Origin: Membranipora membranacea
Lineage: Eukaryota; Bryozoa; Gymnolaemata; Cheilostomatida; Membraniporidae
Reading direction: 5' to 3'
Length of the DNA stretch: 64,000 nt
Assembly: GCA_914767715.1 (NCBI GenBank)
Contig: OU612071.1
Span: 27,527,681-27,591,680, forward strand
The notes below the pieces were generated by a model that worked only from the letters and a program-made list of their open reading frames with translations, was not told the origin of the DNA and did not search any database. A program made the translations under genes and the position numbers. Of this stretch, positions 4,089 to 57,942 are shown piece by piece. Positions within the stretch are counted from its first letter, which is position 1. Each line of letters begins with the position of its first letter.

Positions 4089-4625
4089 ATGGCAGAGCCA
4101 TCAGCATATGCCTTTATGCCAAGAAGGAAAAGGGATATTGGTGATGTTGAGTACCCTGATCTCAGTGATACAGCTAGTGAGGAAGATGAAGAGGAAGTTG
4201 GTGTTACAGCTAGTTCTCCTTCTCTTCCTGTGGAATGTACAAGGGACATCAAACTTGTAGAACCTGCCTCACAGGAACAATGATATTTACAATGTGTTTT
4301 AAAACTGGCTTCTGTGGCTGAAGCCATTTCTGACACTGCAATTAAGCTTGCATGGAGACAGGCCCAGAAAAATGATGGGTACAGACAACCTGAGATGCTG
4401 TACTTTGCTCTCATGGAGAACAACCACTTTAGGTACCATGGATATAGAAATTATATCTCTTTCATTCATGGTCACCTAGGGAAGCATAGACGGTTGATAA
4501 TCCCTGTTTGTGTCACCAAACATCTTCGACACCGATTTCCAGATCCTAAAGGAGAGTACACAGGCTTCTTACCAGGAATGAATGGTGATGTGGATGAGAT
4601 CCTTTGTGCCCTTCATCAGCACTAA
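4089..4625 (+). CDS. P2X7 C-terminal (ballast)-domain-like protein of element A, one in-frame TGA
   Basis: Two stretches in the same frame, 4089-4280 and 4284-4625, are separated by a single TGA at 4281-4283. The N-terminal part is acidic and basic (MAEPSAYAF..RRKRDIGD, then a D/E-rich run). The C-terminal part matches the end of the cytoplasmic ballast domain of P2X7 and its many stand-alone invertebrate relatives: a QC at the start, YR near RYHGYRNY, IPVCVTKHLRHRFPDPKG and EYTGF. The zinc-binding Cys cluster (W-C-x-C-G) that should lie between the halves is missing, so this copy is degenerate. The ATG at 4089 follows a CACTTCCGG promoter-like stretch and has a good context. It lies 600 bases tail-to-tail from the transposase at 5224-9153. 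Confidence 0.65.
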
Positions 4626-4629
4626 CTCA

Positions 4630-5220
4630 CTGTATTTATCTATGTAACCCCACAACGGCCCTTTTCAGGGCCATCATCTCTTTACCCAAAGAGTTTGTTC
4701 AACCTCATACGCACTGGTGTTGTAGTGTACAGCGCATATATATATATGCAGTTGATGCCTTGATCAGCCATCAGCAGGCCTTCATATGACAGGACATCCT
4801 TACAGTAGCCTCTCTCACGATCTCTGATCTGTGTACTGGTTGTAATAACACTATACCCTGTTCACGGTAAGTTAATGATAAATACACTGCTAACAAGCTC
4901 AAATGTATCATTACTATTTCATAGCCGTTGAATTTCGAAAGCATCCATCAGTTTCACCAAGTAGCATTACTGTATCATTTTTCATAAGCTTTGATAACTA
5001 TTGCCAATTATATTGCTGACACTGCTCATAATGAATGAATGCTAATTGCTTACTCACAGAGGGCGGCACGTGAAGCCTGATGCTAAAGGCCCCCCTTCCG
5101 GTTTCAGTTTGCTCAGCGGTTTCCCTCCCTCCCCTACTCCCGGCTGGCTCCCCACCTCAGTGACAACGGGGGAGTCTAACCCCTCATGCACCCGTCGTCG
5201 CCACGTGAGGCCGCCTCTTT
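4630..5220. other. Gap between the convergent genes of element A
   Basis: No exon seen. A GC-rich block at 5050-5220 has imperfectly inverted ends (GAGGGCGGCACGTG near 5059 and CACGTGAGGCCGCCTC near 5201) and may be a small inserted repeat in the 3'UTR region. A short TATA dinucleotide run lies at 4738-4746. Confidence 0.35.
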
Positions 5221-5223
5221 TAC

Positions 5224-8200
5224 TTACTTCTTCATTCGGCTGATGAAGTCTTTCCTGAGCTGCTCATGAGTTGGTGGGATCACTCGAGTTGGCCTCACTG
5301 TTTGGGTAACCTGGACAAAATGGAAATCATAAGATGATCTAGCCTAATGTTGATATGGTTGATGTATTTTAAATTGGATGAAAGATGTTTACTTACCAGT
5401 ATCGATCAGATGCATTATTGTAATTCCATTGAATTTATCATTGAAGCAACACACTAGTAAATTGTTTTTTTTTTGCATATCGTATTACACTGCACAGGAT
5501 ATCATGCGATTTTCTGCTGAGTATGATTAATTTTAAGTTACTTACTGGACGCTTTCTCTGCGTTGGTTCTTGAGCTGCATCTAACACCTCAGCAGTCAGC
5601 AGTTTGACAAAGTTACGAGATTTCCTCTCGTACACTCTGGCACAGGGCCACTCCTTGGAGAACTTGTTCCAAGTTCTTTTAACTTTCATCTCTCCGTCAT
5701 CATCTGTTTAGCAAAACAAATGGACTTTAATATTTAAACATCGGTGGATGGAGGAAAAAACCATCTCACCAACTTATTAGACGATGGCATTTTAATTCCC
5801 CAATCTGATTTTGTGATCAATACTCGTCCAGCTGTGATTGGTATCTTTTCCATATGGTCAAGAGCATCTAAGTAGAACGGTAATTCCTATTTATTTTTTA
5901 GCACTTTCAAAATGATGAAGCGTAACTCACCGAGGAGCACCGGACGACCTGTGTTTTCGTTATGATCAATGACTGCTAGTCTGACACGAGCCTGGAACGA
6001 GGGCATATCAAAGTTCAGCCTCTTCGGAGCATACTTATTTGTCAAACTATTGATGTTCTCAATCGTCCCTGTAAGTATATAAGATTAGAAGTAGTATTAG
6101 GCTATCCAGATTCCTCTGGACCATTCATGATGTGTATAAAACTTGGACGATCTCAATTGAAATAAATGTGATGTCTATCCCGTAAGATTTGTCCGTATAG
6201 TGTGGTTGTTGGTTAGACCAATGCCCTGTCACACAATTAATTTTACCGTTATATTATAATTCAATTTTGACAATAGTTGTATGTATACGGAGAAGCTTGT
6301 GTGGTGAACTGACTGACCAGTGTGGATTGACTCTGACAATTTAGCCAGAGATTTACGGAAGTGAGGTTTCTCCAGCTCCGTAATTAGAAGATTGTGGGCA
6401 GGGCTGCCCTTCTCGAGCCACTTCCATTGACGAATTTCATCTCTACAAATTATATTGGTAGGTAAGTGAAACTTTTGTCACAAGTGGACAGAAATAGCAA
6501 TCTGAGAGCCAACAGATTACTTTAGTTCATGCTCCCTATAAATATTTGTATTCAGATGTTCACAAAGTTGCCCTCTCTCTGGGTAAGGAAAACACGAGAG
6601 GACAACTTTAAAATATATATCATGTCTGATATTTTTCCGGCGTTCAGTCCTGTCAATCATTTCTCTTACCTGGACATGGGGTCGTGTAGGCACCGTTTGA
6701 TAGTATCATACCCCTCAAACTCATGCTTGTTCACCACATGAAACCGGCAAGAGTCAAAAATCTGAACCAGCAGGTCCGGGTCTCATCCACAGTTTGAAGC
6801 GGCATACCACATGTGGTTGGTAATGTATTTGATCCAGGGGAGGAGTTTCTTCTTGTTCTACAAAACCAACAATATATATATCTGGAATAAATCTGTATTT
6901 ATCTCTATTCTCATGGCATGACACGACCTGAATTTTGATTCCACTTGGCATGAGCTTGCATCAAAATAATGCTATGACAGCTTCTATATAAGACCTTTCT
7001 CCCAGTAGGAAAATGCATGAAAGTTATTAATTTATATTGACCTAAGTTCTTACCTCATTTGTGGCACCAGCAATCAGTTTCTTTACGAAACCCTTGCATA
7101 CATGCCACACATCTAGTTGGTGGTTCTTCTCCGGATGGACCGTTCTCATGTAGGCACCTATTCCTATGAAGAACAAATAATAGCAAATTATTATCATCGT
7201 TATTATATGGGTCGCTTTGTGTTCGGTGTGGATCTACAAACCAATTTTTCATTGAAAATCCATAAAATTTCACAATTTACTACTCATAAGCTAACAATGT
7301 ATATATCCCTTTTCCATTGAATGAATCACATGTGTAGTGTATATTTTACCTGTGTGCCCATCAGTAGCAACACAGCCTACTTCGACACCTGCGGAGGTGA
7401 TCTCCTCCAAGCCCTCGATGAAACCGGCTTTCTCAGCGGCAGTTGCGCTTCCAACTATGATGCTCTGTGTTACTATACTTTTACACACTTTTCCTGTTTC
7501 CTGCGTATACAATTTAGATTGAATTATTAATAGTTTAAAATATAAATGTTTTGGTTGTTATTTCTTTTCTTAGGTGCAGTGAAGATGTTAGAGTATATCG
7601 ATAAGCCTGGTACAAACAAGCACTGCTGACTGTTGGTAATCGCCTTCATTCTTTGTTGGAATCAATGATCTCATGACCAGCAAAGGCTGCTCTACTTACA
7701 TAGTCTACGAACAGATAGTGGCAGTATCTGGCCGAATGTCCGGGTGAGTCGAATCGACCATCACCTGTCACAACTACACGTTCATCTAAGAAATAGTTAT
7801 TAGAAATTATGTAAATTATTAGAATCAATGAGTGAGTAAATAAGACATGGTTTCCATTGCAAGAGTGAAGAGCTTGCTTTGTTATAAGGAACTTTGTTCC
7901 AAATGAATCGACACTGTAGTATTCACTATATAGTATAAATATATATATATATATATGTACTGCAAATACGTCCAAGGGAGATTTATACTTCAAACAATAA
8001 TTTATTTTGTTACTGGTTAATGCCTTACCTCTCTCTTTCATATTTTTCAGTATCTCCTGCTCCTGCTCCTGCTCACTGTACATCCTGTCTACAGTTGGAA
8101 TCATAAACTGTGCCTGGGACCTGTAGAAAGTCTCTGACGATACAGATGCAACTCCAAACGAATCTAGGAAGCCTTGTACAACATTGTAGGTTGACCCACT

Positions 8201-9153
8201 GTAATTAAGAGATATTGATCGTCTTATGGTCTTATTATCCGCAAGACATCAATGTATAGGCAACATCGCCTCATATTTACACATCTCAATGTTTTATATG
8301 CATTTTTCAGGAATGAAATTCTGCTAAATTTAGATAATAAAATTTAATGTACTTGGATCAAACATTTATGGGAGCTAGGAATCACAAGAGATCATTAAAA
8401 ACAAGATTAACATGATGAGACCTGCCTCATGAAAGTTGATGTCACCGTAAGGACATTTCCCACAAACTTACCACCCACTCGAGGCTGGCTTTCCCACCGA
8501 TCAGAGCCACCGCATATGCAGCGATAGCTCACGACCAGTGCTGAGCCAACCTCTCGTGGAGTGGCAGACATGTGCTCTCCACATAAACTGCATTTCTTTA
8601 GCTTTATTAGCTCTTCCAGTTTTTCGTAAAAAACGACATGAGCTAAGCTCCCATTGAACTCGTCGAGCTGAGTCTGCTGTAGGGAGAATGATATATCATC
8701 CACCTCCTCATCCGTTGGCCGCCAAGCTAAAAAAATTATTAAACTGATAGATGGCATATAAAACCGCCAATAAAAATGCTAAATCTAATGATACAATTTT
8801 CCTGTTGTCAGTTGTGTTCTCTTTTTTGTCAGACAAGAACTCCAGGAACTTATTATTAAAATTTGGGCAACTCCTTGCTTCAAGATATGTATTGCTGACT
8901 GTCCTTGCAATTGTATCACTAAACACATCAATCTCATTCTTAAAAGTGTAATTTTGTCTATTTTTTCCAGAAATGACATACAGTAATCAGATGTTGTCCT
9001 GGAATCTGACAAGACAGAACTGATACAGGATTGTGCTGCTGGCGTAGATGTTGCTGGCTGCTCCTTAGGTGGTGGTGGGATGGCAGCAGGCGGTGGTACC
9101 TTAGCATAATCATGCTCACATCCAGCGATCTCACGACCTATTATGTCACACAT
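5224..9153 (-). CDS. THAP/TTAA-type (Kolobok-like) DDE transposase, 11 exons, one in-frame TGA
   Basis: Exons: 9153-8982, 8726-8426, 8198-8029, 7785-7700, 7500-7350, 7163-7054, 6857-6670, 6442-6318, 6068-5931, 5703-5546, 5310-5224. All join in phase, giving 561 codons plus stop. Recognisable blocks in order: a C-x2-C ... C-x-C zinc-like motif and WESQPRVGG (exon 2); SGSTYNVVQGFL; VTGDGRFDSPGHSARYCHY, carrying likely catalytic Asp; VGCVATDGHTGIGAYMRT with a second Asp; HQLDVWHVCKGFVKKL; KRCLHDPM; KWLEKGSPAHN; IHTGTIENINSL; KYAPKR; LAVIDHNENTGR. I know this block order from a large, mostly unnamed animal transposase family. THAP domains and TTAA duplications on sister copies here suggest Kolobok. 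Codon 355 (6785-6783) is TGA inside NCG-DPDLL, so this copy may be inactive. Intron 2 uses a GC donor. No THAP exon was found upstream. Confidence 0.8.
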
Positions 9154-9573
9154 GACTCCTTTTTCCTGTGTGAATGTATTTTGAATGAATACAGATATGG
9201 TTTGTGATTTATATTTCTTATACAGTTGCTTGAAAAAATACAACAGCAGGGTAGCTTCACTGCTAACTTTGAAAGGTGTAGCTGGTCTCATGATTGTTAG
9301 CATAAGAGTTCTACAGACTTTGATACTTTTGTCACTGATCACTATAACATTCACATCACTTGATTACCCAAATAAAAGCCAGTGAGTTGCCTTCTTTTAC
9401 ACTGTGGGAAGACAACTTTCTAAAAAATAAGCTAGTGAGACCAGGGAAGGGTAGGGTATACACATTGTATCCTTCAACAGTGATAGAGGCTAGACTGTCA
9501 AGGTCCCGAGCTGCTTATTGCTGATCACATACTCCTAGCAGCTCATGTGTAGGTTTACCACCTGATAACTTAC

Positions 9574-9644
9574 CGATAATACAGGGAGAGCAGTGTGAGC
9601 ATGAAAGAAAATAAAGTAAAATGAGAACTCGACTTTGCCACCAT
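9574..9644 (-). CDS. Possible isolated first exon with signal-peptide-like sequence
   Basis: On the minus strand an ATG in a strong context (ATCACCATGG, 9644-9642) opens 23 codons rich in hydrophobic residues (SFMLTLLSLYY) and ends in a good GTAAGT donor at 9573. Its phase does not match the first transposase exon at 9153, so it is either spliced to an unrecognised exon or belongs to another gene. A secretion signal would be unexpected for a transposase. Confidence 0.3.
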
Positions 9645-9649
9645 GGTGA

Positions 9650-10980
9650 TTTTTATTTCACCGCGAGTGAATAGAAGTGAGAAGTGCAAAAATAACTGTA
9701 ATGAATTCAAAACAAGTGTTAAACATTGCCATTAATAATAAAAAACGAAGTTTACTTACAACAGTCATAGGATGGTTATCAACAGTAGGCTAGAAAAAAG
9801 AACAACACTTATGCAATAGTACCTGCCAGAACCCCTCGGCTTTTCACCGAGCTAACGTCCCCACCTGATTGTATTTATCAGGCCATTCGCATGGCTATGT
9901 TACAAGCTGGCAGGCATGCCATGCGAATGAAAGACCGTCAAAGAATTGATTATGAGAAGTTTAGAGTGGTCCTGGGGACGATGGGTACATATACTGCCCA
10001 AACCTTCCACCTTCAATGACAACGATAAACGTTGCTGTTAAAAGGTTGACTAAGGTACTGCACACCCTAACATAGCCAGCTGCTCACAATCACACAGAGG
10101 TTTGCAGCAAAAATACCTTACCTTAGTCACAATCATTAGCAACCAAGGAGTAACATATACTCAATTACTAATGGAAGACTACTTCAGTTGCAGCACTCAG
10201 TCTTTTTGGAGGTTTGTCAAGATGGAAAAACATACTTTTTGGTGTGACTGAATAGGACCATTGCCAGACATAGCCGCCTGTCTTAGCATACTAGGTCAGA
10301 CCAACCAACCTTATGAAGGATAGTGTGATGAACATGGAACACTCTAGGAACTGCCTGTGGCCGGTTGTTCTGCTTGGACTGCTAAGAATCATTCATTCAT
10401 TTCAGCGCATGAGCTATAAGTTTTATGCCTCATAAAGTATGTTATGACTCACCTCTTTAGTCTGTATGGCCAGAGAAGGCACAGCATGAGCAAGCAGAGC
10501 ATACATGCTCTTACTCCCACACCTCACTCTTACAAAACACTCTCTCTCTCAAAATGTCTGCTGCATATGAGTGGTTTTAGGTTGGCACTCTGGGCAAGGG
10601 TGGGCAGTTTACTACACCATAGAACAAAATCATCACCTGAAGTAGGGCAGAGAAATACGGGGTCTCTATAGGTCCTTGCCTGCCCACAAACAAAACATTT
10701 AGGTGCCATTGTTATTTATTCAAAGATTACTTCTTTATTTGCTCAACAGTTAAAACCGGGGAAATTTAAATACCCACCAAACACTGTTTTGTGATTGGTT
10801 TGTGAATTTCAATTAAGCCAATCATCTTAGGTTTTTCTACTACGGAAACAAAATGGCGGATGAGAGTGTGCAACTGTAATATTTCAATATTTTTAATTTA
10901 ATATTTATTTATTACATATGAATTTAGAAAAAGGAAGTCATCATGCATCAAATATTAAAATATAACTTTTGTGGTTGTAA
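9650..10980. other. Non-coding stretch with small hairpins and an orphan start codon
   Basis: No exon supported. Near 9830-9990 there are several small inverted repeats (for example GCCATTCGCATGGC against GCCATGCGAATG). Around 10790-10880 the sequence looks like a promoter and start: GATTGG and CCAATC boxes, then AAACAAAATGGCGGATGAG, an ATG in good context that meets a TAA after 8 codons. Confidence 0.35.
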
Positions 10981-17740: not shown

Positions 17741-18686
17741 AGATTCCGGTCAATCATTAAACCATAGCTCTAAACAGGAGTTATTATACTCAAATAGGTT
17801 TTCTTAGGTGCTCTACATCACTATTTTATTTATTTAAATTAATTTTATTAATTCAGAATAGTAAATAATAATTATAATTTTTGGCCTTTGCTTATAAAGG
17901 AAATAGCTTGGACGCCATTAAAATTATGACATCATAATTATGTTTTGCTCAACTTCCTGTCCTTATTACTAACAAGTCAATCAGCCAATCAGATGCCTTC
18001 TTTCAAAGTCACATTGTGAGCTAAATGAAGCAAGCTGAATTATTCCTCTCCTAGATAATCTGCATAATCCTACAACATCCTACAGAACATACTAACAGCT
18101 TACTGTCTAACTAGAAGTTAGCTCTTATCTATCCAAGTATAACTATACTCAGTATCACTATTGAGGTAAGTAATACAAGGGATCAGGCTAATGAGAAAAG
18201 CCAAGTGGTGGTTATTTGTTATTATTATTCTTCTTTCCTTCCTTGATTTGTTGTGACTCAAAAAGTAGTATGTAAGCTGAATTGACTAGCTAGGTCAATT
18301 TACTGAACAACATATATATACAAAGTCAACTATCATTACATTAGGTAATAAGAGACCAGGAAGACTCAACAAGAACCAACTATACATACTATATAAATCT
18401 TATATGGGAGTGAGACTAGTTCTTTCATCTCAGTGATTCATCAGCAAACTAGGCCCTTGAAAACCAAGGAGTAAAAGTTCTTGGATGAATATGATCAGTC
18501 AGCAAACTCTCAGAGACAATATTAAGAATTACTCATCCGCGCTGTATTATAACTCAATTGCATGATGCATCAAAATGTTAACTTCTTCGATGTATTAGTT
18601 AGTATTGAAGTTCTTGAGCCAAAATGGCCTACAGGTACAACACTACAAGTATTTACCAATACTCATTTTTCATTTTATTGCAGATA

Positions 18687-19780
18687 ATGATGCCAATCGA
18701 TGATTTTGCTGTCTACATCCTAGTAGTTCAGGACTGGGGAGACGAGCCAATACTTCCAATGAATGAAGTTGATCCTGCTCAAAACGTAAGAAACATCACA
18801 GGTCATCACTTGCGCACCAATAATTGTTATGACAGTTAAAATCTGATATTACCTATATTATATATATCTCAAGATGGGCGAGCAACAAGAGATAAATTTA
18901 TATTATTGTTTTTCAAATACGCCGATTCTTCTTGCAGTAAAGAGTATTGCTTTGTTGTTACAGGAATATGTCCCCCCCCCCGCCAGTGGAACAATGGTGC
19001 GACTGCGGCAAGTGCCACGGGTGGCCTTGCGCTGAGATGAATGTGTGTTGCAGGCACCATCCAATATGGAAAACCAAGTCCAAAGACCTGGACTGCATCA
19101 CATCTTGTAAAAGCATACACCAGCTCCTGCTGCCGGCGCCTTTGAGGATGATGTATCACAACTATTGTGCATATCACAGTAAGTAGAAGCACCAGGGCAG
19201 CCAGGGTGGCGTAGTGGTCACTACCTATGCTGTCAAAGGAGGTGAGCTCTCCGGACAATAGCCTAGCTTTCCCACTCCTACCTTGTACAGGAGTGCGCTA
19301 AAGAGATGTGATAAATCTTATTCCACATACTGTATGCATATTAGCAAATAAATTTGAGATTATTATTATTATTATATTTACTCGACAAATAAGAGGTTGC
19401 CTACAGTTTTCACACATCCGTGAAAATAGCCAATAACTTTGATTTTTAGTATGATTTCAACTTGACACGGAAAATTGTTGATTGGAATGAAATTCTCTCC
19501 ATTTTTAGGACCTGTGTATGAGGATGCAGAGCAATTAATTGTTGGGAGATACTCAGAGCAGGAGATTCAGAGGCGTATTAACAACCAAAGGCGAATTACG
19601 GCCTACCGATCGTTGGTGTTTTGGGCCTACCCTGAATTGAGGAGAGGGGAAAGACGCCTACTTCCATCATGTGTCTATCTTTTTGTTAGAGCCAAGTTCA
19701 ATAGTATGGATGAGGATATGTGGGCTGACTACAACCATACAGTACTCGCTGAGCGAGTAGCTGGGGACAGTGATATATGA
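18687..19780 (+). CDS. P2X7 C-terminal (ballast)-domain-like protein of element D, 3 exons
   Basis: Exons 18687-18785, 18964-19178 and 19509-19780 join with matching phases except for one problem: exon 2 begins with a run of ten C that puts the rest out of frame; nine or twelve C would restore it. Exon 2 carries the cysteine cluster typical of the family: QWCDCGKCHGWPC, then CC, then DLDCIT. Exon 3 has TAYRSLVFWAYPEL and RRLLPSCVYLFVRAKF, matching the AYR and LPSC(C) blocks of the P2X7 cytoplasmic domain; the final YTGF is replaced by an acidic tail. Expected length is about 195 residues. In P2X7 this Cys-rich domain binds zinc in the cytosol; here there is no channel part, so it is stand-alone. 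A SINE sits in intron 2. Confidence 0.7.
19197..19318 (+). repeat. tRNA-derived SINE, internally deleted copy
   Basis: Matches the SINE at 56050-56213: GGTGGCGTAGTGGTCACTACC, then AAAGGAGGTGAGCTCTCCGGACAATAGCCTAGC, and the tail phrase CTTGTACAGGAGTG. About 45 bases containing the B box are missing between TAGTGGT and CACTACC. It lies inside intron 2 of the element D gene. Confidence 0.8.
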
Positions 19781-19982
19781 TCAGTTCATGACAAAATTAA
19801 ATATATTACATAGTTTGAGTAATGATTAAAATTGAGAAACTTAATGTAACATACAAAAATTAGATTACAGAGTCTGATACATAATTCAATGAGTTTTTAA
19901 ATTAATGTGTTGAGTTTTAAATTTTATCAGCATGTATGCATTCTATTTCTGTTTTTGAAATGTCAACGATACTACAAGCATG

Positions 19983-20204
19983 TTACAATAAAGTTGAGCT
20001 ATAGTCCTCTATACGCAGGTAGTGAGGCTTCAGTTTAAGACCTCTAGTCTGCCTCTTCTGGATCAGCTCCTTGATGGCTGATATTGACGCTGAGGTAGAT
20101 GGCGCTGAGATATCCATCGTTGAAGTTGATCGAGTTGATGTTGAGGGCTTTGGTGGTGTTGCACTCAAAGCTGTTACGAACGAGGTGGCATATGTATGAT
20201 CCAT
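19983..20204 (-). CDS. Short C-terminal exon facing the P2X7-C gene in element D
   Basis: The minus-strand frame is Ser/Thr/Pro-rich, then basic (IKELIQKRQTRGLKLK), and ends with TAA at 19983. An acceptor (TTCGTAACAG) lies near 20172, so the exon probably starts there. Its position, tail-to-tail 200 bases from the P2X7-C stop, is where elements A, B and C have the last transposase exon, so I infer a transposase remnant. The sequence itself is too short to prove it. Confidence 0.35.
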   Translation of the reverse strand: MDHTYATSFVTALSATPPKPSTSTRSTSTMDISAPSTSASISAIKELIQKRQTRGLKLKPHYLRIEDYSSTLL

Positions 20205-20209
20205 ATTTC

Positions 20210-42860: not shown

Positions 42861-43902
42861 TTTAAAGGGATCGTTGCGTCAGAAATTCCCTGTACCAAGG
42901 GATGGGCAGTAGATAGTTATTGCCCATGGCTTTCTATTTAACCCAAGTGATGTGTCTGGTTAATGACCCTGTGACATAGGAAGGTCCTCATAATATTGCT
43001 CATGACTCAAGGCAGTAATAACAAAGGCTATTCATGAATTATAGTGATGTTATTGAATTCATACAAATTGTCATATCTCGCAAACTGAATGGGATTTATC
43101 CAATGATTTTCTGTGTCCACTAATTGAAACAATGTCTGTCATCTAGAAGTAAAACTGTTTGCTAAATTCCATTTTTTATGAGTGACTCAATGGAACATTG
43201 TTTTGGTATTGCTCATGGATATACTAGGTAATTCGGTTGCTTTTCTCAGCATGGTCTTTGGATTAGCCAATGACATGTTAGTATTTTGTGTTTGTCTATT
43301 GATGCGCAGCTTTGTAGTCTGTTTAGGTAATGAAAGGTATCAGATAGTAAATTGGACACTATATTTATCGATGAGCAGGCAAATCTCTCAAGTACATTTT
43401 CAAAGGCTATAGGTAAACAACAAATAGTCAGCCAGCAATGATGCACTACTTTCGATCCGATAATTGACCACATAAATGAAACGGCTCATTCAAGCCCAGG
43501 TACGATAAAACTAAAAGCTGTCAACATTCATAGAAGGATATTATACGCATGATAATTAGGCTTCATTCTGGACCTGTAATACACTCTTATTTCTCCATAA
43601 GGATAAATACATTGACAGAGCAGAAACCACCCTATACTCTAAGTAAGTATTGCAAATAATATTTGATACGGTGTAGATTAAATTATTTTTGTCTAGTCGA
43701 GAAGTATTGCCCATTGGTATCGTGTTCATGATACAATGGGTGCTGCACTGCACCAGTAAAAAATGCCAATATGACCAGTAAAAGAAGCTGTTTAGTTTTG
43801 GATCGGTGGAACAACAAATAATGGTAAAGCAAACAACATCCTTGAGTCAAAAAGTTGGTCCTTAATTATCTTTCATCCATCATTGTGTCTTGTTTTACAG
43901 GT

Positions 43903-44159
43903 ATGCCAAACAGATGCATTGCAGCAGGTTGTGACAACACCCCTGTTAGTTCATCAGATTGGGAGAAAGCTGTCACACTTTTTTCCTTCCCAAAGGACTG
44001 TGCTATGCTCAACAAGTGGATAGCAAATGTAACGCTGACAAGGCCGTCGAACAAGCTCACATCAAAGTCGAAGCTATGTTCAAAACACTTTGATGATAAC
44101 GCTTTTGAAAACAAGGACGCCTATATAAACTCTCAACACTTCGGATTAACGCCGCCTAC
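43903..44159 (+). CDS. THAP domain exon of element B transposase
   Basis: After a TGTTTTACAG acceptor, ATG 43903 opens MPNRCIAAGCDNT, a classical THAP start. It is followed by FSFPKD, W in NKWI, LCSKHFDDNAF and LTPP, ending at a GTAAGT donor (44160). The C2CH zinc residues and the FP and W positions are all present. THAP domains place transposases on element ends. The continuation of the domain (LKKDAVPR) is in the next exon at about 44297, although the phase of the junction does not fit the obvious AG, so an alternative site or a small lesion is likely. Confidence 0.85.
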
Positions 44160-44296
44160 GTAAGTGTTAATCACAAATTAAAATACTTGTATCACATCAG
44201 GCTTGTCAGTGTGTTATGCGCTTTCGAAGAGACAAGACAGTATGATTGAACTTATCACATTTTCTGAATTCTGGTTTATTTTTTATCGGAATAAAG

Positions 44297-44451
44297 CTAA
44301 AAAAAGATGCTGTTCCTCGAGCTGGTAAACTCTTCAAAACCCCCGAGCCAGCGGTGCCTGAGGAAGGCAGCGGCAGTACTAGGGCCTTAAGACGGATTGT
44401 AATAGATATTCTCTCGCCATCTACAAGTGACAATGCGGAGGCATCTTTTAC
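44297..44451 (+). CDS. Second exon of element B transposase
   Basis: Encodes LKKDAVPRAGKLFKTPEP, the end of the THAP domain, then a Pro/Ser-rich linker to a GTACG donor at about 44452. Acceptor AATAAAG at 44296 is the nearest AG. Confidence 0.6.
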
Positions 44452-45199
44452 AGGTACGAATATTTTTTTTGTTCCTATCCATGCTTATTCTCTTACTCTG
44501 CTTAGATCTGATTGATTTGCAAGGAAAATCTGGTAGCATGAATGTAAATGTCACAAATTCTTCTGATGATTAATGGATAAATCAGGGTCAATGATAAGTA
44601 ATACGAGGTCATGATTAATCAAAGCAGTAAATGGCAATACCACATCATGATACACCTGTCTTATTTTAGCAAACACTTCATGTTTTGATAACAATTAGTG
44701 GTCATCAATCAATCCGCTGTTGGCCTCGTTTGCTCTTTCGTGGACGTTGACTTTGATCTGCAGCACAGTTGTGGTTGGATGAGTACTGTGGCGTGCCTTA
44801 CTTTTGATGGTTTTGCCCATATCAATAAAGAAGCAGTTAGCCTTCAAACTTGTGTTGTGCTGCGTCTGAAAACAGTCCTAAAATACGGGTCAGCTACAAT
44901 GAATCACAATTTCCGACTGTCATGTTTTGACATGGTATCATCTTGACGGGTCTTCATCTTGAGCTAACATTATCAATTAGTATATTTGACGCGATTATCC
45001 ATGATAGTGAATTTTATCTGCCACAAGAAAATAATGCCGTTTTGTTTGTTTGAGCCTTTGTAGAGTGCACTAGTCATGGGTGTGTATTTGTGATTCATTT
45101 CTATACAGCGAGGCAAAGTAAGATGATTGTGCGATGGAACGAATTGAAAGCAACAATGGGAATATTACAGCGTCTTTGAAACTGTTATGAATATTTTGA

Positions 45200-45592
45200 T
45201 ATGATGATAGGAATAAATTATAACGAGGATGGGTGTTCTGAACCAGATTCTGATACAGATGATACAGTCTCTGATATTCTCGACGATGACCCAGAATGGT
45301 TTCCAGAAGAGATGCAAGATCGGGATATACAATCTGGGTCAGCATCTCAGCTTCCAGATGAGTTCTTTGCAAAATATAGTCATCCTGAAGTTTGCTCCAA
45401 AAAATTTCTCCTTCGGTCACTATGCAATGGTCTCAAGGTAAACAATTTTTTCAAAATAATGTTGTTTTACCTGTTATACATCATATCGTAATCTTTGATA
45501 TCAATGTTTGTAACGAATTCACCTGATACATTACGATATTTGTTTCACGCATAGTCTTTTGTGTCAATTATGACTTGATCAGCAACTAAAGT

Positions 45593-45648
<56 letters not shown>

Positions 45649-46239
45649 AGTGATGATATTACAAGCTAGGCCGTCCCATAATAATATCTGCAAAATATGT
45701 TGAGTATGATGCATTTATTCACAATTTTAGAAACTTATTAGCTGGGCTGCATTATAATGAAAATGCCGATCGCGGGCTAATGTTGGATAGACAGGGGAAC
45801 CCTAAAATCGAAGTGAGATACATCAAGTGGCAAGGGGGCAAGCCAAAAATTCGTAAAGTCTACGAACTATCTACATCAAGTGAGTTCAGATTTTATATTA
45901 GGTACTTCACCAGCAAAAAACGCACAGAATTTGTTTACAATCATCAATTGGACATCCAAATTTGAGTTATTATTTATCTTTACCACATTCACAACATAGA
46001 GGCAATAATAATCATCATGGATGTACACTCATATTTTTCATGGACATATCCAATTTTTTTCTACAGACTGTGTATCACGTCTTCAACTTCAGCTACATCA
46101 AGTGATGACGACTAAAGATTTTTCACAGTTACCGACACTACCTGATGCACCTAATACAATGACTGACACACTGGACAAGGGAAATGCTTCCACTGCTCTT
46201 GCAACGTACCATGAAAGGAGCAGATTCCTTGTCATGTAA
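45200..46239 (+). pseudogene. C-terminal exons of element B transposase, catalytic region missing
   Basis: Three pieces: about 45210-45436 (acidic linker DSDTDDTVSDILDDDPEWF, then FFAKYSHPEVCSKKF), about 45731-45885 (LLAGLHYNENADRG ... KPKIRKVYEL) and about 46068-46239 (ending TAA). The middle piece matches element A LAVIDHNENTGR ... and element C LLLAAIHYNHNS ..., the conserved C-terminal block of the family. The blocks carrying GDGRxDSPGHS and TDGH are absent. The junction phases are not all consistent. A long TA run lies in the intron at 45595-45645. Confidence 0.6.
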
Positions 46240-46319
46240 ATGTTGCTAAGGCGCATATAATTCATTACTCAGGTTGGTGGCCCTGGAATGTGCAATTTTA
46301 GTCATTGTTCCATGTTTGA

Positions 46320-46994
46320 TTACAGTTGATCATCATTATCTGCCTCTTGTTGTGATTCGTTGCTATCAGCAGCTTCCTCAAATCCAATGTAGTTTCCTGA
46401 CTGAAAAACAGTTCTAATCTTTTTGGTGACACACTGAGGGATATGTCTCACATTTCCGTATATCCATACTGTAAACTGCCTGTATGCAATATACCTTCTT
46501 TTGGCATCGGTAAGTCTTTGGTTCCTTATACCAGGATGTCCAGCTTTTTGATACAAGTAGGCAACTCTAGCAAGCATTGTTGTATACAGGCATTGATGGA
46601 AAAATGATGGACGCAAAGTTATGCATTGATATCGCCCTGTATCTGCAAATAAAACGTTCTCAGCACACATTGCCTTTATTTCTTCAGACTCCTGGCAGCA
46701 GCTGACATCGAAGGAACTTTTGGCAAACTTTACTGGCACACAGCAACCATTACAGAGACACCAGTCTACAGCTGGGATACGCTGCTCATACAATCTCTGT
46801 CTTGCCTCCTTTCTCGCCTGCGCAGCGGCTAACTCTCCAGGTTGCGCTGGTTGTTCGTCACTCCATCCAGGAGAAACATTGCCTTTGTTTCGCCGATCAT
46901 TATTTGTTTGAAGCCGCTGTAGCCGCCCCAGAGCATAACCATCACCCTCACTGTCACTTGAACTTGAATCAGCGATGTTGAAACCCCTAGCCAT
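46320..46994 (-). CDS. P2X7 C-terminal (ballast)-domain-like protein of element B, single exon
   Basis: Uninterrupted frame of 224 residues from MARGFNIADSSSSD (ATG 46994; an upstream in-frame Met at 47033 is possible) to TAA. An acidic Ser/Asp-rich start and a basic helical linker lead into DWCLCNGCCVP, SCCQE, a further Cys and YQCIT, the zinc-binding cluster of the P2X7 cytoplasmic domain. Then follow YIAYRQFTVWIYGNVR, HIPQCVTKKIR and NYIGF, and an acidic tail. This is the best preserved copy in the window and has no channel domain. It lies 80 bases tail-to-tail from the element B transposase and inside the same TTAA boundaries. Role in the element is unknown; zinc- or DNA-binding, or a structural partner of the transposase, are guesses. 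Confidence 0.8.
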   Translation of the reverse strand: MARGFNIADSSSSDSEGDGYALGRLQRLQTNNDRRNKGNVSPGWSDEQPAQPGELAAAQARKEARQRLYEQRIPAVDWCLCNGCCVPVKFAKSSFDVSCCQESEEIKAMCAENVLFADTGRYQCITLRPSFFHQCLYTTMLARVAYLYQKAGHPGIRNQRLTDAKRRYIAYRQFTVWIYGNVRHIPQCVTKKIRTVFQSGNYIGFEEAADSNESQQEADNDDQL

Positions 46995-47039
46995 AATCAG
47001 CTTATGAATAAGAATGCCTTGGCATCTTTGCAATCAACC

Positions 47040-48125
47040 ACAAATATATCTGTATTCAATACAATTTTACACTATAATGCTAAATAAATAAACGATTGTT
47101 GTTGGGGGGCTAATTTTATTTTGACCACAATGCAATCTTGCCTGACAGAATAGGTTAAACATGTTCCATTTCACCTTGCATGTTATTTATCAGTGATCCA
47201 TAATGGATAACAACTCTTTTCACAAGCCCTAGAATTAGATGTTGGCAAAATAAGAACAACATGGTATCTTTGAGTCATCCGACCATCTAATTAATTGTTT
47301 GTGTTCCACAAAGATCAAAGTCAGATCATAGTTTTGTAACTGTATGGTATTATAATCATTTATTATTATTATGAACTGGTTATTCCAGTTATACAAAAAC
47401 ATATCTTGCCAAGGATGGTTGTCAGAGCTTTCAAACTATGAATAAAGACACTCTATTCATCAATTTATCATCACTGAAAGATGTCTGTTAAATATATGTT
47501 GATGTAAATAATCTATGGATATTAGTAACTATAACACTGCGTATGACATATTAGCCTTTTGGGACTACTATATCAGAGCCCTATGTAAACACTATTGGCC
47601 TGCTCTGCAGCAAACATTGTGTCACATGAAGATGCCAGCATTGTAGCAGAATCATTCGGGTGTTACCATAGCAATGTAAAAACAACAACAAAAGCTTTGG
47701 GAAATCCAGTTCAGACCTGCCTGGCAAAGTGTCAGACCTGCCATATAATTTTTTTTCAAACAGACTAATTAAATTTTTAATTGCAACTAAATTTCAAATT
47801 TTTCTTTTCTTATTGGTAACAAGTAGTGCATTTCTTTATTATTGCTGCCTCTTTTAGTGATTTTTTGGAATAATGACGTATTCTGATCCCTTTAAAACTA
47901 GGCTTATCATAACTTGCCCCATTTCATTCGGAATCCAAGCATTAATTCCAATATACCCGGTCAGCATCAGCTCATCCAATACAAGGAGGAAAATCAGATC
48001 TGTGCCGGTCTTCTGAAAATGTGATATTCATCAAATAAAGCTGAGCTCAAAAATTCCTAGTGTTAGATCACTCTGCGCATGTGCGAACTGTTGAGGCATA
48101 CGTTTGTCTCTGCAGCATAGGGCTG
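47040..48125. other. Element B right end and flank, no gene
   Basis: The non-coding tail of element B runs to 47891; 47896-48125 shows nothing recognisable. Confidence 0.5.
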
Positions 48126-49122: not shown

Positions 49123-50963
49123 ACATCCAAAGATTATCATGCAGCCCATACACATCCAGGTTCCAGTTGTTGAAATCAATAAAAAAGTCACAAGGATCTG
49201 TATTGAGAAGGAATAAATGTAATAGACAGAAGACAAATTAGGTACAAAAGGCATGTTTGAACAGTTTAGGAAGTAATTGTTGGCACAAGAAATCTCTATC
49301 TAGGAAGCTCTTTGTTTGTTGCAATTGAACCTTCAACTCCCGAGTTACCAAGTTACTGAAGTTACCAAGTTATCCGGGTGACCAAGTTGCCTTGTCAACA
49401 AGTTACCTTTGCTAGTCAACTAGTTACCTAGTCAACTAGTTACCAAGTGTCCAGCAGTAAATAGCAAGCAAATGCCCACAATCAGCTGCGTCACCTTCTT
49501 CTCCTAAAGGAAGTACAGGTTAAGACAAAAATTTTTTCTGTTTTTTAGTAATTATACTGATAGCATGGCTCATCTTCTTGTTATTTTACTTTAGTTATTG
49601 TTTTATTGAAGTAAAGTATGGGTGAGCGTCATTTTGGGTAGAGAAAATAAGCCATCACACACTTTGTAAAATTCTGGAAATCAACTGTCAGCAGTGAGGC
49701 ACTGTGGAATAAAGTGCCCCGTATTTACTATGACCAGCTTGTGCCTTAGCCAGAGCTATCATATACTCAATAGAGGACAGGGCATATACCAATAGCATCA
49801 GTCGTTGTCTCATCTGATTCTAATTATGAAAGGACCTCAAAAAAAAACTAATATTCTATTTGGACAATAACATAGGTATAGACACTGTGAACAAAGTCAA
49901 CCCCAATAATGATTATCTGGCCTCCACATAAAGAGACACTGATCTTCATTTTTTTTCCAAGCTTCACAGTTTATTTATATATCATCATTCATAGAGTCAT
50001 CAATACTTGTGGAAAATCCTCTACAGCATTGTTCTCAAATACAATACAGCATTGTTATACAGCCTAAATCCACTGTTCTTGAGCCCTGTAAGACATGTTT
50101 CACAACATGTCTTACAACACCCGTGTGTTGGATCAGACTAAGTAACTGAACTATGTCTTAGCATACAACATCTGCTGCATCAACTAACCCTCTACTATGA
50201 TTGTTTCATAAAACTGGCTATTGTCCAACAGGACTGGACTTTTTCTGTAATGGACACTGATGTTCGTCTTTTATCCAAGAGTAATCAATACAAGCGGAAA
50301 ATCCTTCATCATTGAAACATCGCAATAATGCTGCTGGACACCTTCACAAAGAACCGGAATACAAGCATATGTTTTTATTCGTGATCACATGAGGAAAGAA
50401 ATGTATAACAACTCACTTATCATCCCAAGCGTCAATCCTTGTTTGTACAGTGATGGCTTCTTCTTCTTCTCACACTTACAGCCTCCAATTTCCCTACTAG
50501 TCAGGTCTCTACCACCATTTCTACTAGTCAGGTCTCTACCACCATTTCTACTAGTCAGGGCTCTACCACCATCTCTACTAGTCAGGGCTCTACCACCATC
50601 TCTACTAGTCAGGGCTCTACCACCATCTCTACTAGTCAGGTCTCTACCACCATTTCTACTAGTCAGGGCTCTACCACCATCTCTACTAGTCAGGGCTCTA
50701 CCACCATCTCTACTAGTCAGGGCTCTACCAGAATCTCTACTAGTCAGGGCTCTACCACCATCTTTACTAGTCAGGGCTCTACCACCATCTCTACTAGTCA
50801 GGGCTCTACCACCATCTCTAATAGTCAGGGCTCTACCACAATCTCTACTAGTCAGGGCTCTACCACCATCTCTACTAGTCAGGGCTCTACCACCATCTCT
50901 ACTACTCTGGTTACTACTTCCATATCTGTTAGCCATGGCTATTCCATCGCCTCTGCTATTCAT
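49123..50963 (-). CDS. Small multi-span membrane protein with repeat N-terminus (MS4A-like?), partial
   Basis: Three minus-strand pieces. An N-terminal exon, 50963-50480, encodes MNSRGDGIAMANRYGSS and then about 15 copies of a 9-residue unit (RDGGRALTS) and ends at a GTAAGT donor. An exon starting near 49506 encodes KKVTQLIVGICLLFTAG. Exon 49197-49123 encodes ILVTFLLISTTGTWMCMGC, with clean AG and GTAAGT borders. A hydrophilic N-terminus followed by hydrophobic exons of this size is reminiscent of MS4A-type tetraspan proteins, but the junction phases between the first two pieces do not fit, so an exon is probably missing. Other exons were not found. Confidence 0.4.
49340..49450. repeat. Tandem GTTACCAAGT / CAACTAGTTACC repeats
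   Basis: Irregular copies of AGTTACCAAGTTA-like 10-16-mers, mirrored in weak form (CTTGGTAA, CAACTTGG) at 52050-52090 beside the inverted exon copy. Confidence 0.6.
50494..50898. repeat. 27-bp minisatellite, 15 units, in a coding exon
   Basis: CTACTAGTCAGGGCTCTACCACCATCT-type units, 15 copies, length divisible by three. The minus strand reads RDGGRALTS units. Because a GTAAGT donor closes that frame at 50479 and hydrophobic exons follow downstream on the same strand, the minus strand is the likelier coding one. Confidence 0.9.
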
Positions 50964-51039
50964 GGCTCTAGGATCATCTCAGCTATTCATAGCTCTCGGC
51001 ATCGTTATGATGCTGATTTTAAATCCGTATGATTGAAAT

Positions 51040-52050
51040 CTAAAGTGTAAAATACATTAATAACCCTAATGTGAAATTTTGGCATATAATAGATGAGTAA
51101 GATTTAGGTTAAAAATCCCTCAAGAGCCAATGTGATTGAGAAACATTATACACATGCAGAGGGTTGAGTATATTGAATTTATAATGCATCTTAATGATGG
51201 ATGGTGCTAGTTATTATTCAAAAAGCAGTGCCAAATAATTTGAGGCAAATTTTGGATCATATTGACGGTAGATTACGATTTTTTAATAGGACAGTTCATA
51301 TTTGCATTGGGTTTTCACACACCGATATTACTGACATCTCAAATCAGGTGACCATTCCATTGCAAAGGCTTCGATCTGTCAGAATCTGCAATCAGCATAA
51401 AGTTGTGTGCTCAATTGGTCTGAAAGGGCAATGGCAAAGTATGAATTTTTGATGTATTTTTAGCCTTTCGTTATTGATTTATCGCTCTTATATGGAATTA
51501 CCCTCTCCTTCCCTATCTGCCTCTTTCCTCACTACACAATCGATGTCATGGTGTCAGTTCTATTAGAGGTCTATTTGTTACATCATCCCCAAACCAAATG
51601 TCATTGAGCATGTGCTAACCAGTTATTCATGATTGATTAACTTTTTCATGTTAACAAAATCTTTCGCAGCCGGTAATGGTCAAAATCTTATTCGTAAAAT
51701 TCAATTGATGAGCTAACATACACTAGGTGATTTACGATAACACTATGGCTGAGGCATAAGCTGGTCATAGTAAATACAGTGCGCTGTAGATGACAGTGGC
51801 TACAGTGGCTGCCTGCTAATGGATGCCATCCATAGTTATACAAAGTGTATGTATGCGTGTTTTGTCTATCCGAAATATCTCCCATAAAATGTTGCACACA
51901 CCCAAACCTTACCACCAATAAAGCAGTAACCGAAGTAAAATAACTCACAGAGGGGCTATGTTATTAAAAGAATAACACGAAATCAGTCATAGTTTGTGTC
52001 TTTACCTTCACTTCCCATAGTAGAGGAGGTGTATGAATGTTAGTCACTAC
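51040..52050. other. Non-coding stretch, nothing recognised
   Basis: No supported exon on either strand; open frames at 51201-51452 and 51688-51948 have no protein-like features. Confidence 0.4.
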
Positions 52051-52767: not shown

Positions 52768-53056
52768 AATCATGACTGAACACAACCTGCTCAGCTTGGA
52801 TTCCTTGTTATAAGTTTTTACTGCAAATTTTATTGTCACTTCATGAGGAAGAATAGATCTGTGCTGTTAATTGAGTTTGCCAACTCCAGATATGCATGTA
52901 TGTATGATGAAGCTAGGGTACGTGACACACATATATATATATATATATATATTAAGTCTATGGTAATCTCTCATCAATGAAATTATGTAGTAAATCAAGG
53001 CACACAGGGTATAATACCAGCAAAAGTACATTAGATCTGTTTTAATCCCTGAGATA
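52768..53056 (+). repeat. Fragment of an element E terminal repeat
   Basis: Matches 28935-29215 from CATGACTGA...ACAACCTGCTCAGC to CTGAGATAC, with a longer TA run. It is a solo piece abutting the BEL/Pao fragment. Confidence 0.85.
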
Positions 53057-53094
53057 CTGCCATCAATGCACAAACCAAACAGACCCTTAGATCA

Positions 53095-54350: not shown

Positions 54351-54354
54351 TTCA

Positions 54355-55080
54355 CCTGCCGAATGAAAGTGATGTTGGGCCAGCATCCTTAAATTTTAGG
54401 TCCACTTTAGATAAGTACTCGACAGCATCCGCCACTGATGATGATAACATTTCTGCCGCGAGCTTTACCCTCATCTTCATGTTGGTTCAATTCATGTTGG
54501 TCCAATTCATGTGGCGCTTAGTTAGCTTGTTTGCCAATCGGAGACCCATTTCTTGTTGTAGATCATTGAGCTGCTCAATAAACTTACAGTCTATGAAGCC
54601 ATCTTTAGTCTTCAATCTTCTCATTGTCCCAAAGGCATTTCTTGCCAGTTTTAACATTTGTACTGCATCCAGCGTGAAATAGACCTTGTGTGGCAGCATC
54701 AGGTATGGGAAGTGAGGTTTATCGGGAACACTTGCTCCTAGCATACGCAGTGTAGCAATATTTGACTTAGCTCCATCACAGGTGATGTTGACGACACGCA
54801 GGCCATGCTCAGCAGTGATTTTTTAGGCAATCATCTACCAGCTTGTGCTGGACAGCACTGTCAATTTTATCAACGTAAAAGTATCCTATAGGATGGCGGA
54901 TTCCACCAACAACTGGCACCAGTAAAAACACCAAATATTCAGATGCTGTTTTAGATTTGTCTCCTATAGTGACACCCCTTCACCTCATGGCCACTTTTTT
55001 CCAAGATAAGTCGCTTACTTATTGACATACCGTCGATCACCAGACTGTAAGCATTATCATGTGTTTTTGTTGACACAAGT
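54355..55080 (-). pseudogene. P-element (THAP9-like) transposase pseudogene fragment
   Basis: The minus strand reads, across frameshifts, SLVIDGMSISKRLILEKSG (first catalytic Asp region), TASEYLVFLLVPVVGG, PIGYFYVDKIDSAVQ, LRVVNITCDGAKSNIATL (second Asp), HKVYFTLDAVQMLKLARNAF, FIEQLNDLQQEMGLRLANKL and LAAEMLSSSVADAVEYL. These are the order and spacing of P-element/THAP9 transposases (RNase-H-like fold with GTP-binding insertion). At least two frameshifts and a TGA, the latter next to a 15-bp duplication (ATTGGACCAACATGA), show it is dead. N-terminal THAP and C-terminal parts are absent; a LINE is inserted on its upstream side. Confidence 0.85.
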
Positions 55081-55082
55081 TT

Positions 55083-55690
55083 GATGATTGATTGATTGAT
55101 TTGATTGATTTATTAGCTATCACAAACATCAAATGTTGCAAAAAATGGATGCATATACTTTGTCATAATAAGAGCTTGCTACCAGTGTATGGAACTATGG
55201 ACTTTTTTAAAAAAGAATCTCATTAAGTGTGATGCACATTTGCCTCAGAAAACAGTCTTTGCCCCATGAGCTGCGATATTTAATATGTCTAACACGACCA
55301 GAAGGGCAATGTTCGAGAAAATCGTGTATAAAGTGGTCTTCATCAGAAAAACAGCACATGATAACGGATTTAGTTCTCTGTTTAACAATGGCATCGAGAT
55401 CGCCTACGTCAAGCCCTAAATTCTTGGCATCGTTGAAAACTTTTCTTAGTAATTTCTTGTCCTTAGCATATATGCTAGTGTGCAAAACAGGTAGACAATA
55501 CAATAAGAGTGAAACTACAAAACTTTTGAACAGCATGGAGGCTAATGGCTTCGAACTCAGATACATAAAATTTTTAACAACATACATCCTTTGACGTCCG
55601 TTAAAAAGCCAGGCTCGCAGTCAACAGTATGTGCATTAGGAAGAGTGATGTTAGACCTCAAGTATGCAAATGCCTTTGTGGAGTAATAGA
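55083..55690 (-). mobile_element. 5'-truncated LINE with TGAT-repeat tail
   Basis: The minus-strand frame 55587-55207 encodes the end of a LINE reverse transcriptase: LASMLFKSFVVSLLLYCLPV, then FIHDFLEHCPSGRVRHIKY and the terminal FLRQMCITLNEIL. The matching upstream part YLRSNITLPNAHTV lies out of frame near 55610-55660. The 3' end is a (TGATTGAT) run at 55083-55111, a typical LINE tail, joined directly to the P-element relic. Confidence 0.75.
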
Positions 55691-55699
55691 GCATTGTGA

Positions 55700-56045
55700 T
55701 GGCAAACGCTTTTATTGCCTTACTGTACACGCGTTTCGTCCTGTTTAGTTTGGGTCACAGTTATATATGATTTTATAATTCTTTTTACCATGATTTGACT
55801 GAGAATGATGAGATGTTTAGCTGGATTGTTTGCAGACTGAAATATGTATTTTATTTCCTCATTATAACTGAGTTATGTGATAATGCACATTTATGCCTGA
55901 CTGTTTTTGATACTGAAATTATGTAATGTAATTTCAGTGCTAAGTATGGATGCTATTCACTAATGGATATAGTTATGTAAATGTAAATCACTTTTTATTT
56001 AGCTGCTCTCCAGCAATCTTTACATGAATATAAGATAGAGACATA
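55700..56045. other. AT-rich intergenic stretch
   Basis: Nothing recognised apart from AT-rich sequence. Confidence 0.4.
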
Positions 56046-56049
56046 TACA

Positions 56050-56213
56050 TATTCAATTTAGCACACTCCTGTACAAGGTAGGAGTGGGCAAGCTAGGCTA
56101 TTGTCCAGAGAGCTCACCTCCTTTAGCAGCATGGGTAGTGACCTGGATTCGAACCTGCAACTCTCAGATTGAGATGCTCGAATCCTAACCACTACGCAAC
56201 CCTGCCTGCCAGT
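56050..56213 (-). repeat. tRNA-derived SINE, full-length copy
   Basis: On the minus strand: GCAGGGTTGCGTAGTGGTTAGG (A box), GCAGGTTCGAATCC (perfect B box, 56144-56157), then GTCACTACCCATGCTGCTAAAGG and a body shared with 19197-19318. The tRNA-like head is about 75 bases long. Confidence 0.88.
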
Positions 56214-56549
56214 TAGAAACAAAGTTCTCACTCTAAAATTGGTGCAGGTTGGTAAAACATAAATTTACAAGTTTTAAATACACAAACTATGAATATAACC
56301 ACAATATAATACAAGGGCTGAGGGGCTGAGTGGCTGAGAGAAATTATTGATATAGATGAAATGTCTTCCAATCTTAGCTCTATATCTAAGATCATGATTC
56401 AGCAAACAAGCGTTGTCAACATATAATATATGCTGACAAAGCTTGCTGGATGAGAGAGCATTATTGTATTACATAAGTGTTGTTATTTCAACTTATGTTG
56501 CGGACAATGGGTAATTCCAATGCAATGGAAATGATAGGCTTCAACAATG

Positions 56550-57591
56550 TTTAGGGCAGGTATTTGGATGGAAGCTGAAGGTTGATGCATTTGTAAGTGA
56601 CCGGCACATGCCGATTCGGGCCTTTATGAGGGACACATATGGCCCTAATAGGAAGTCGGAATTCTCCGACAATCCAGAGATTATTCATTATTTGGATACA
56701 TGCGAAGTCTATTCAGACGTTTTTTTTAATTTGGGACAAAAGTAACTTTCCAAAATTAAATTCAGGTTCAATAAAAATTAGTTTTGTAAATGAATGAGTG
56801 TACGATATGATTGCTGAAGCCCTGCCTTATTCAGACCTTCTTTTTTATTTATAGATACTCCAGAGCATGAGTCACAAACGAAAGAAGGATAAAGGATGTT
56901 CGCCAACTAAGTCCTCATGGGCAGACATCTAGTCTTGAGGCATTCCATTCAGTTGTAGTTCACTTTGCCCCCAAATTGCTTCACTTTCCCTATGAGGGAA
57001 TGGAAACAAGGTGATTTGTTGGCTTTTAACCTCTTTGATGGATAAGGACAGGCACCAATGAATTTTTTTATGCCGCTAATACAGGCTTAAGCGAACGAAA
57101 CAGTTTTTGTAAGATTAATACATATTGAATTGTTGTGGTTGAAGACCTGACGCTGTTTTATTTTTCATTCAGCTTCTGTTAGCAGCTATCCATTATAATC
57201 ACAATTCAGATTTTCATCAGGCAGAGGGAGAGGCCCAAAACTTACTTACTTACCCAAAGTTCAAGAAGGGAGAACCCACAGTTAGGAAAGTCAGTAAAAA
57301 AGCTGATTTTGGTGAGTAAATAATTCTATGTTCATCAGCTATTAAAGGCATTCAATCCTTGAAAATAATTAATCCAAAATACGATGGAAAAATAAAGTGT
57401 ATTATTTTATTATCATGGCAGGTTATGCTGATACTTTGCTTAAAGCGGCATTCAAACTGGAAGTAGACACTCCAACAAAAAGGCATCAGCCAATGATCAG
57501 CCTGCATAAGAAAGCGGAGGACCCGTCAATGTATTTCAAAAATTACAAAACACGCTACCCAGGTCAATACAAAGAGCCAACAAAGGAATAA
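56550..57591 (+). pseudogene. Element C: transposase remnant (middle and C-terminal exons)
   Basis: Pieces in order: about 56566-56744 contains DAFVSDRHMPIRAFMRDTYG, equivalent to CVATDGHTGIGAYMRTVH of element A (second catalytic Asp region). About 57175-57311 has LLLAAIHYNHNSDF and KGEPTVRKVSKKADF, the conserved C-terminal block, closed by GGTGAGTA. About 57419-57591 has the final basic exon ending in TAA. The first catalytic block and the THAP domain are missing. Its stop is 82 bases from the stop of the opposing P2X7-C remnant. Confidence 0.65.
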
Positions 57592-57672
57592 CAGGTATAT
57601 AAATCTGCCAAACAACTTAAGACGTATAACGAATCGTCCCTACTGCAATTCATGGATTTAATATGCTGACTT

Positions 57673-57942
57673 TTATTCGTCTGATAGTAAAAACCCTGTA
57701 TACGTATTGTTTAAGTCTGGAAATGTTCCTCCAGTAATTGTAACACAACAGGAAGGCAAGCAGAAGAGGTTGTCTTTGCCTACCACTCCAAACAGGAATC
57801 TTGCGAGTTGCCGATATGCAATGTGGTGATAGCGACGATTTGCATTCCCATTATCGTTGTATGCATTAGGACCATACTGCTGTCTGAATGATAACCATGC
57901 ATTATCTAATACCTCAGGATGCTGCTCATGAGGAATATCCAT
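57673..57942 (-). pseudogene. Element C: P2X7-C-domain remnant
   Basis: The minus-strand frame contains YHHIAYRQLARFLFG, LFCLPSCCVTITGGTFPD and NNTYTGF, the second half of the P2X7 cytoplasmic domain. The cysteine cluster of the first half was not found upstream. It lies tail-to-tail with the element C transposase remnant. Confidence 0.65.

Follow-up and report, generated by a model that had tools for sequence, protein, structure and literature searches.

Genes encoding a P2X7-C (ballast) domain recur in the window analyzed here, a stretch of 64,000 nucleotides, and a first-pass annotation had placed four of them tail-to-tail with THAP/Kolobok-like transposase genes. This arrangement raises the question of whether the ballast-domain protein is a second gene of a transposon lineage or a host gene that mobile elements have joined by chance. 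According to Kojima & Bao (2022; PMC9587614), Kol0 Kolobok transposons encode a DDE transposase together with KolX, a ballast-fold protein that is spread over diverse animals and was captured by P2X7; nanor is probably also KolX-derived. In what follows, the P2X7-C genes of the window are referred to as KolX and the four loci as A, B, C, and D. We consider it very probable that the loci represent four old, mutually unrelated insertions, either of Kolobok-type (Kol0) transposons or of their derivatives, the full element having two genes with KolX as the accessory one. This reading is based on the observed domain content and gene orientation, on the evidence that the loci are independent, and on the Kolobok signature of A.

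Four independent KolX loci

A profile built from B-type ballast proteins was searched against all 2823 stop-to-stop stretches of at least 15 aa in the window. This search identified four loci (B, 2e-116, the profile being of its own family; A, 4.3e-10; D, 1.5e-6; C, 2.8e-6), with no further match below E = 0.3 (the next one being at 0.37). The Pfam domain P2RX7_C (PF20478) was found above its cut-off in A, B, and C and just under it in D (21.7 versus 23.5 bits), and the proposed presence of a P2X7-C domain gene at four loci is thus borne out. The genes in the window are split, which gives the DNA a eukaryotic look.

The KolX gene of A (4089–4625, plus strand; Pfam E = 4.1e-9 for 4314–4625) is decayed, with one in-frame stop at 4281–4283, and lacks the zinc-cysteine motif (CxCxxC...CC). 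Protein P0015, which is 90% identical to A KolX over 154 aa, is open across the site of this stop and also lacks the motif, as does the 213-aa protein P0016 (49% identical over 181 aa). A closer relative, P0014 (97% over 110 aa), starts downstream of the stop and is therefore uninformative at that site. Because P0015 and P0016 lack the motif too, A probably represents a true lineage without zinc cysteines, rather than an ordinary KolX that has lost them by damage.

In B, KolX is one open exon of 224 codons that carries the zinc-cysteine motif (46320–46994, minus strand; Pfam E = 2.6e-7). Its product is 48 to 64% identical to P0001–P0005 and 83% identical over 90 aa to P0013, and it lacks five loop residues. 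Since this loop is filled in the other 14 of the 15 rows of the KolX alignment, P0013 included, the gene appears to be a decayed copy from a family with members elsewhere. Locus C retains the last KolX exon (57673–57942, minus strand; Pfam E = 1.2e-8). Two KolX exons were found in D, both on the plus strand: an exon that carries the cysteine motif (WCDCGKC ... CC ... CITS; 18944–19183; partial Pfam match, profile positions 76–121, 18.1 bits) and the last exon (19475–19780; Pfam E = 2.1e-4), which by itself gives the score under the cut-off. With the same-frame cysteine exon added, the score rises to 24.5 bits over two stretches and passes 23.5. The last exon of D is 78% identical over 90 aa to P0017; this relative and P0018 show no cysteine motif, but they may not cover that exon.

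Between loci, the KolX sequences are 22 to 41% identical over 40 to 58 aa. Below E = 0.001, blastn yields a single match from one locus to another, a repeat of 87 bases shared by C and D (93%, 1.7e-32), and three other short matches span 19 to 34 bases (E values of 0.004 to 0.52). Such low protein identity, together with almost no DNA matches, implies that the pairing arose repeatedly and was not copied once; segmental duplication of a single locus, the alternative that the first-pass annotation had itself raised, is ruled out on this evidence.

Transposase remains at A, B, and C

The transposase gene that faces A KolX was traced by profile and alignment to about ten exon pieces with approximate borders (5227–8778, minus strand), with one internal stop. 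Nine minus-strand stretches matched the transposase profile at E ≤ 1e-9 and one at 0.0012, values that are circular because A is part of the profile. A search with the joined pieces gave at least six proteins, with E values of 7e-58 to 1e-25, among the best 8000 candidates scored. Three of these six relatives match the Pfam family “Mutator-like transposase” (PF20700) above cut-off; A itself gives nothing above cut-off in Pfam and only a subthreshold MULE match (0.029). In an alignment with P0006–P0011, of which P0011 is a protein of the bryozoan Watersipora subatra that is 34 to 35% identical to the A transposase, the first catalytic D falls in GDGRFDSPGHS and the second in ATDGH. The sequence also contains DVWH (a DxxH motif), a final E after HTG (HTG..E), and, between DxxH and this E, an H2CH finger (HVVNKHEF...RCLH) that was found in A only. 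Published Kolobok features are a DDE triad, THAP, and H2CH (PMC6004289), and C/DxxH with a zinc finger between DxxH and E (PMC9587614). As judged from these motifs, the A transposase carries the Kolobok signature, that is, DDE, DxxH, and H2CH. When the transposase profile was run over the stretches of the window, the set GDGRFD/ATDGH/DVWH/HTG..E was present in A, partial in C, and not found in B or D.

Locus B has a THAP exon (43903–44163, plus strand; Pfam THAP PF05485, 5.4e-14, found again in a six-frame scan) and probable C-terminal transposase exons on the same strand (45657–46239), which were recognized by reading frames and by a profile match at 45657–45962 (E = 0.044). Between the THAP exon and this tail, no match to the transposase profile below E = 1 was found for the catalytic core; the stretch 45209–45438 is, by eye, a candidate for a further transposase exon. 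The THAP exon and the weak tail match together make B a probable transposase locus. In C, the transposase remains (56515–57591, plus strand) comprise the regions of the second catalytic D and of the final E and C-terminal exon pieces. Profile matches cover 56871–57011 (5.3e-8) and 56515–56742 (0.021), both on the plus strand, and the former leads by blastp to P0006 and P0007 (9e-8).

For D, the short and uncertain exon that had been proposed as the transposase partner (19986–20207, minus strand) is not supported, as it had no match to the proteins found, to Pfam, or to the profile up to E = 20. Six-frame Pfam scans of the regions of A (1001–10000), B (42700–47200), C (55000–59500), and D (17757–21522) revealed no domain other than P2RX7_C in D, THAP in B and not in A, C, or D, and neither a piggyBac transposase domain nor a P2X channel domain in any of the four. 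Since the same scans also miss the transposases of A and C, they are a weak negative as regards the absence of a transposase, in D as elsewhere. The description of the partner as a THAP/Kolobok-like transposase hence holds for A by the Kolobok signature, for B by THAP, and for C by core fragments, and does not hold for D.

Tail-to-tail arrangement

The KolX stop faces the stop of the transposase remnant in A, B, and C, with gaps of approximately 600, 80, and 81 bases, respectively. In a simulation of 400,000 trials, 3 trials put all three randomly placed transposase ends within 620 bases of, and convergent to, a KolX end of any of the four loci; the 620-base limit was picked after the gaps were known and B was counted as a transposase locus, so the result is to be read as an order of magnitude. 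The earlier judgment that the pairing is hard to explain by chance agrees with this outcome. Both the arrangement and the stop distances that had been proposed for four elements are confirmed by profile matches and orientation for A, B, and C; in D no transposase was detected, and the distance of about 200 bases disappears with the unsupported exon. The idea that the P2X7-C protein is a second gene of a transposon lineage is supported, as it fits three of the four loci and matches the report of Kojima & Bao (2022).

Element boundaries

Locus D is bounded by TTAA duplications at 17757–17760 and 21519–21522, next to terminal inverted repeats of approximately 90 bases that are 80 to 88% complementary (17757–17845, with the left repeat starting ACCATAGCTCT, and 21433–21522). 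Its termini, AC...GT, depart from the 5'-RR...YY-3' pattern published for Kolobok, for which reason the element was filed as a KolX-bearing TTAA element and not as a Kolobok. No convincing TTAA/inverted-repeat boundary was seen at the other loci. The single TTAA pair with 10 of 12 matching ends at A reaches only 16 of 30 upon extension, and in the flanks of C no TTAA pair reaches 9 matching positions out of 12 at its ends. For B, which like D had been thought to be enclosed by TTAA and terminal inverted repeats, the flanks contain no TTAA pair with at least 9 of 12 matching ends. A 9-bp inverted pair, CCTATTCTG, at 42696 and 47146 lacks TTAA on its left side, and the best 14-mer partner beside the right-hand TTAA matches at 12 of 14 positions, where 12 shuffles give 11 or 12. 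The enclosure of B was rejected as not above chance; that of D stands.

Fold and conserved residues of KolX

A profile of 15 KolX proteins matched four distinct sequences in the PDB at E ≤ 0.1, all of them P2X7 (9e-9 to 3e-8), and a six-sequence profile reached P2X7 with an E value of only 0.005; B KolX alone found no PDB chain. On the basis of homology, the ballast fold is predicted for KolX at all four loci. AlphaFold models of B KolX had mean pLDDT values of 43.1 (6 sequences) and 45.9 (15 sequences). In viral contigs, a scan with the KolX alignment gave 79 pattern matches, with no relative among them.

Conservation was read from the 15-row alignment, from which P0005 was left out, with rat P2X7 numbering taken from an alignment. 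The rows lack independence, as two of them lie close to A, one to B, and two to D. The equivalents of R546, Y550, P570, and C572 do not vary in any of the 15 rows; R551 and F581 each have their equivalent in 14. At the position of R578, 12 rows have R, two have K, and one, the decayed copy of C, has G; H547 and R574 are kept in none. Rump et al. (2020; PMC7016195) list R546, H547, R574, R578, and K583 as the GDP contacts of rat P2X7, among which invertebrates retain only R546 and R578. In KolX, likewise, two of these five positions are still occupied as in the rat, and two or more are lost (K583 being outside the count). The residues kept in the 15 aligned proteins fall in the GDP-binding half of P2X7.

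Origin of the loci and role of KolX

The inserted Kol0 elements would be cut-and-paste DNA transposons, or derivatives of them, in an animal genome; a complete element would carry two convergent genes, one for a THAP-bearing DDE transposase and one for KolX, a small protein with the P2X7 ballast fold and a basic core. Of these parts, A has its transposase core and a KolX in decay; B has a THAP exon, what is probably the tail of the transposase, and a KolX that is still open, the catalytic core not having been found; C has fragments of both genes; and D is a TTAA-flanked element in which KolX alone was found. At A, B, and C, where the ends were not found, the two genes would have moved as a unit. 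What speaks against this explanation is the combination of AC...GT termini and no detected transposase in D, along with the lack of a convincing boundary for the other three. Further points against it are that the B transposase is recognized from THAP and a weak tail match, that Pfam gives the A transposase nothing above cut-off, and that B KolX by itself reached no PDB chain and the six-sequence profile P2X7 only at 0.005.

A literature search on the pairing returned Kojima & Bao (2022) and one review with a single mention of each term, and the pairing of a transposase with KolX is real but mostly already published in 2022. The loci resemble Kol0 Kolobok in the DDE triad, DxxH, and H2CH finger of A, the THAP of B, and the ballast-fold second gene of all four; they differ in the ends and in D, as just described, and in that A KolX lacks the zinc-cysteine motif. 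The available text of PMC9587614 contains no statement that we could find on the orientation of KolX relative to the transposase. For KolobokP, it describes a nuclease gene downstream of the transposase on the complementary strand; the placement of the accessory gene is similar here, whereas the KolobokP gene encodes a His-Me nuclease and KolobokP has long terminal direct repeats. What is new, modestly, is the cysteine-less KolX lineage of A, also seen in P0015 and P0016, adjoining a Kolobok-type transposase, with the ends of A not found; to this variant the window adds the KolX-only TTAA element D.

It is improbable, though less so than the other possible origin discussed below, that A, D, or both are of piggyBac type instead, piggyBac being a group that also duplicates TTAA and has a few families with a gene for a KolX-like protein devoid of most cysteines (PMC9587614). 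D begins with AC and not RR, and A KolX is cysteine-poor like the piggyBac-borne proteins, while the transposase that faces it has DDE, DxxH, and H2CH and is of Kolobok type. The six-frame Pfam scan of 1001–10000 showed no piggyBac domain, and that of D no transposase of any kind (weak negatives, both), and D does have the cysteines. We find it highly improbable that the ballast-domain genes are nanor-like host genes near which transposons inserted by chance. The loci share with P2X7 and nanor the homologous PF20478 domain and, in B and D, the cysteine pattern, and the open reading frame of B KolX adjoins a transposase for which no core was detected, as a host gene might. Against a host origin, the genes lack a channel part, transposase remains adjoin three of the four as convergent pairs at 80 to 600 bases, with the rarity in random placements given above, D KolX sits within a TTAA/inverted-repeat unit, and Kol0 Kolobok is published as a KolX carrier (PMC9587614).

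As to function, KolX would serve the transposition complex as an accessory subunit, and its most likely mode of action would be to bind nucleotide, or the DNA ends, beside the transposase. The plainer version would be an accessory DNA- or transposase-binding protein, in keeping with the pI of 9.0 of the B KolX core. The function of KolX is not known to us to have been tested. A role as passenger or regulator (repressor), and not as a subunit that helps transposition, seems unlikely to us, if the most serious of the alternatives: KolX occurs without a detected catalytic core in two of the four loci (B and D), and other Kolobok lineages have no accessory gene or a different one (PMC9587614, section 10), whereas the published spread over diverse animals (PMC9587614) and the conservation of core residues favor a contribution to transposition. 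More speculatively, and in our view a long shot, KolX could be a guanine-nucleotide-binding subunit used in trans by the Kolobok transposase, with the zinc site as a dispensable stabilizer that was lost in the A type. The P-element transposase, which belongs to the same DxxH group as Kolobok (PMC9587614), requires GTP, held by an inserted domain (PMC7776569), and this built-in domain would be the parallel for KolX in trans; that PMC7776569 calls this use of GTP unique to P elements counts against the parallel. If the GTP reading were true, the GDP-binding half of today's P2X7 would be a relic of transposase chemistry.

The accessory-gene reading of the four loci provides independent support, from one raw window, for the published transposon origin of the P2X7 ballast domain. 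In a literature search, the term “domesticated transposon” was not found in any of the 17 P2X7 papers covered. Rump et al. (2020) described a linkage of ballast genes to two markers throughout Metazoa, as well as a protein of Ixodes scapularis that combines THAP and ballast domains (PMC7016195). We infer that this “ancestral synteny” may partly reflect transposon neighbors.

Other features of the window

The HTH domain of P-element transposases (PF12017) has a match (4.3e-10) at 55623–55745 on the minus strand, less than 1 kb from the C transposase remains and on the opposite strand. A repeat labeled SINE-like by eye occurs at 19216–19302, between the two KolX exons of D, and at 56057–56143, in the left flank of C (93% over 87 bases). 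Units of 10 and 27 bases form long tandem arrays, at 35140–36519 and 50383–51084, that are open in several frames. A direct repeat (28935–29210 and 52770–53057), 91 to 93% identical, is made up of two adjoining pieces of 171 and 117 bases. Finally, nested inverted repeats with arms of up to 545 bases, 80 to 99% complementary, fill 21994–33552 in a three-way palindromic layout of 11.5 kb.
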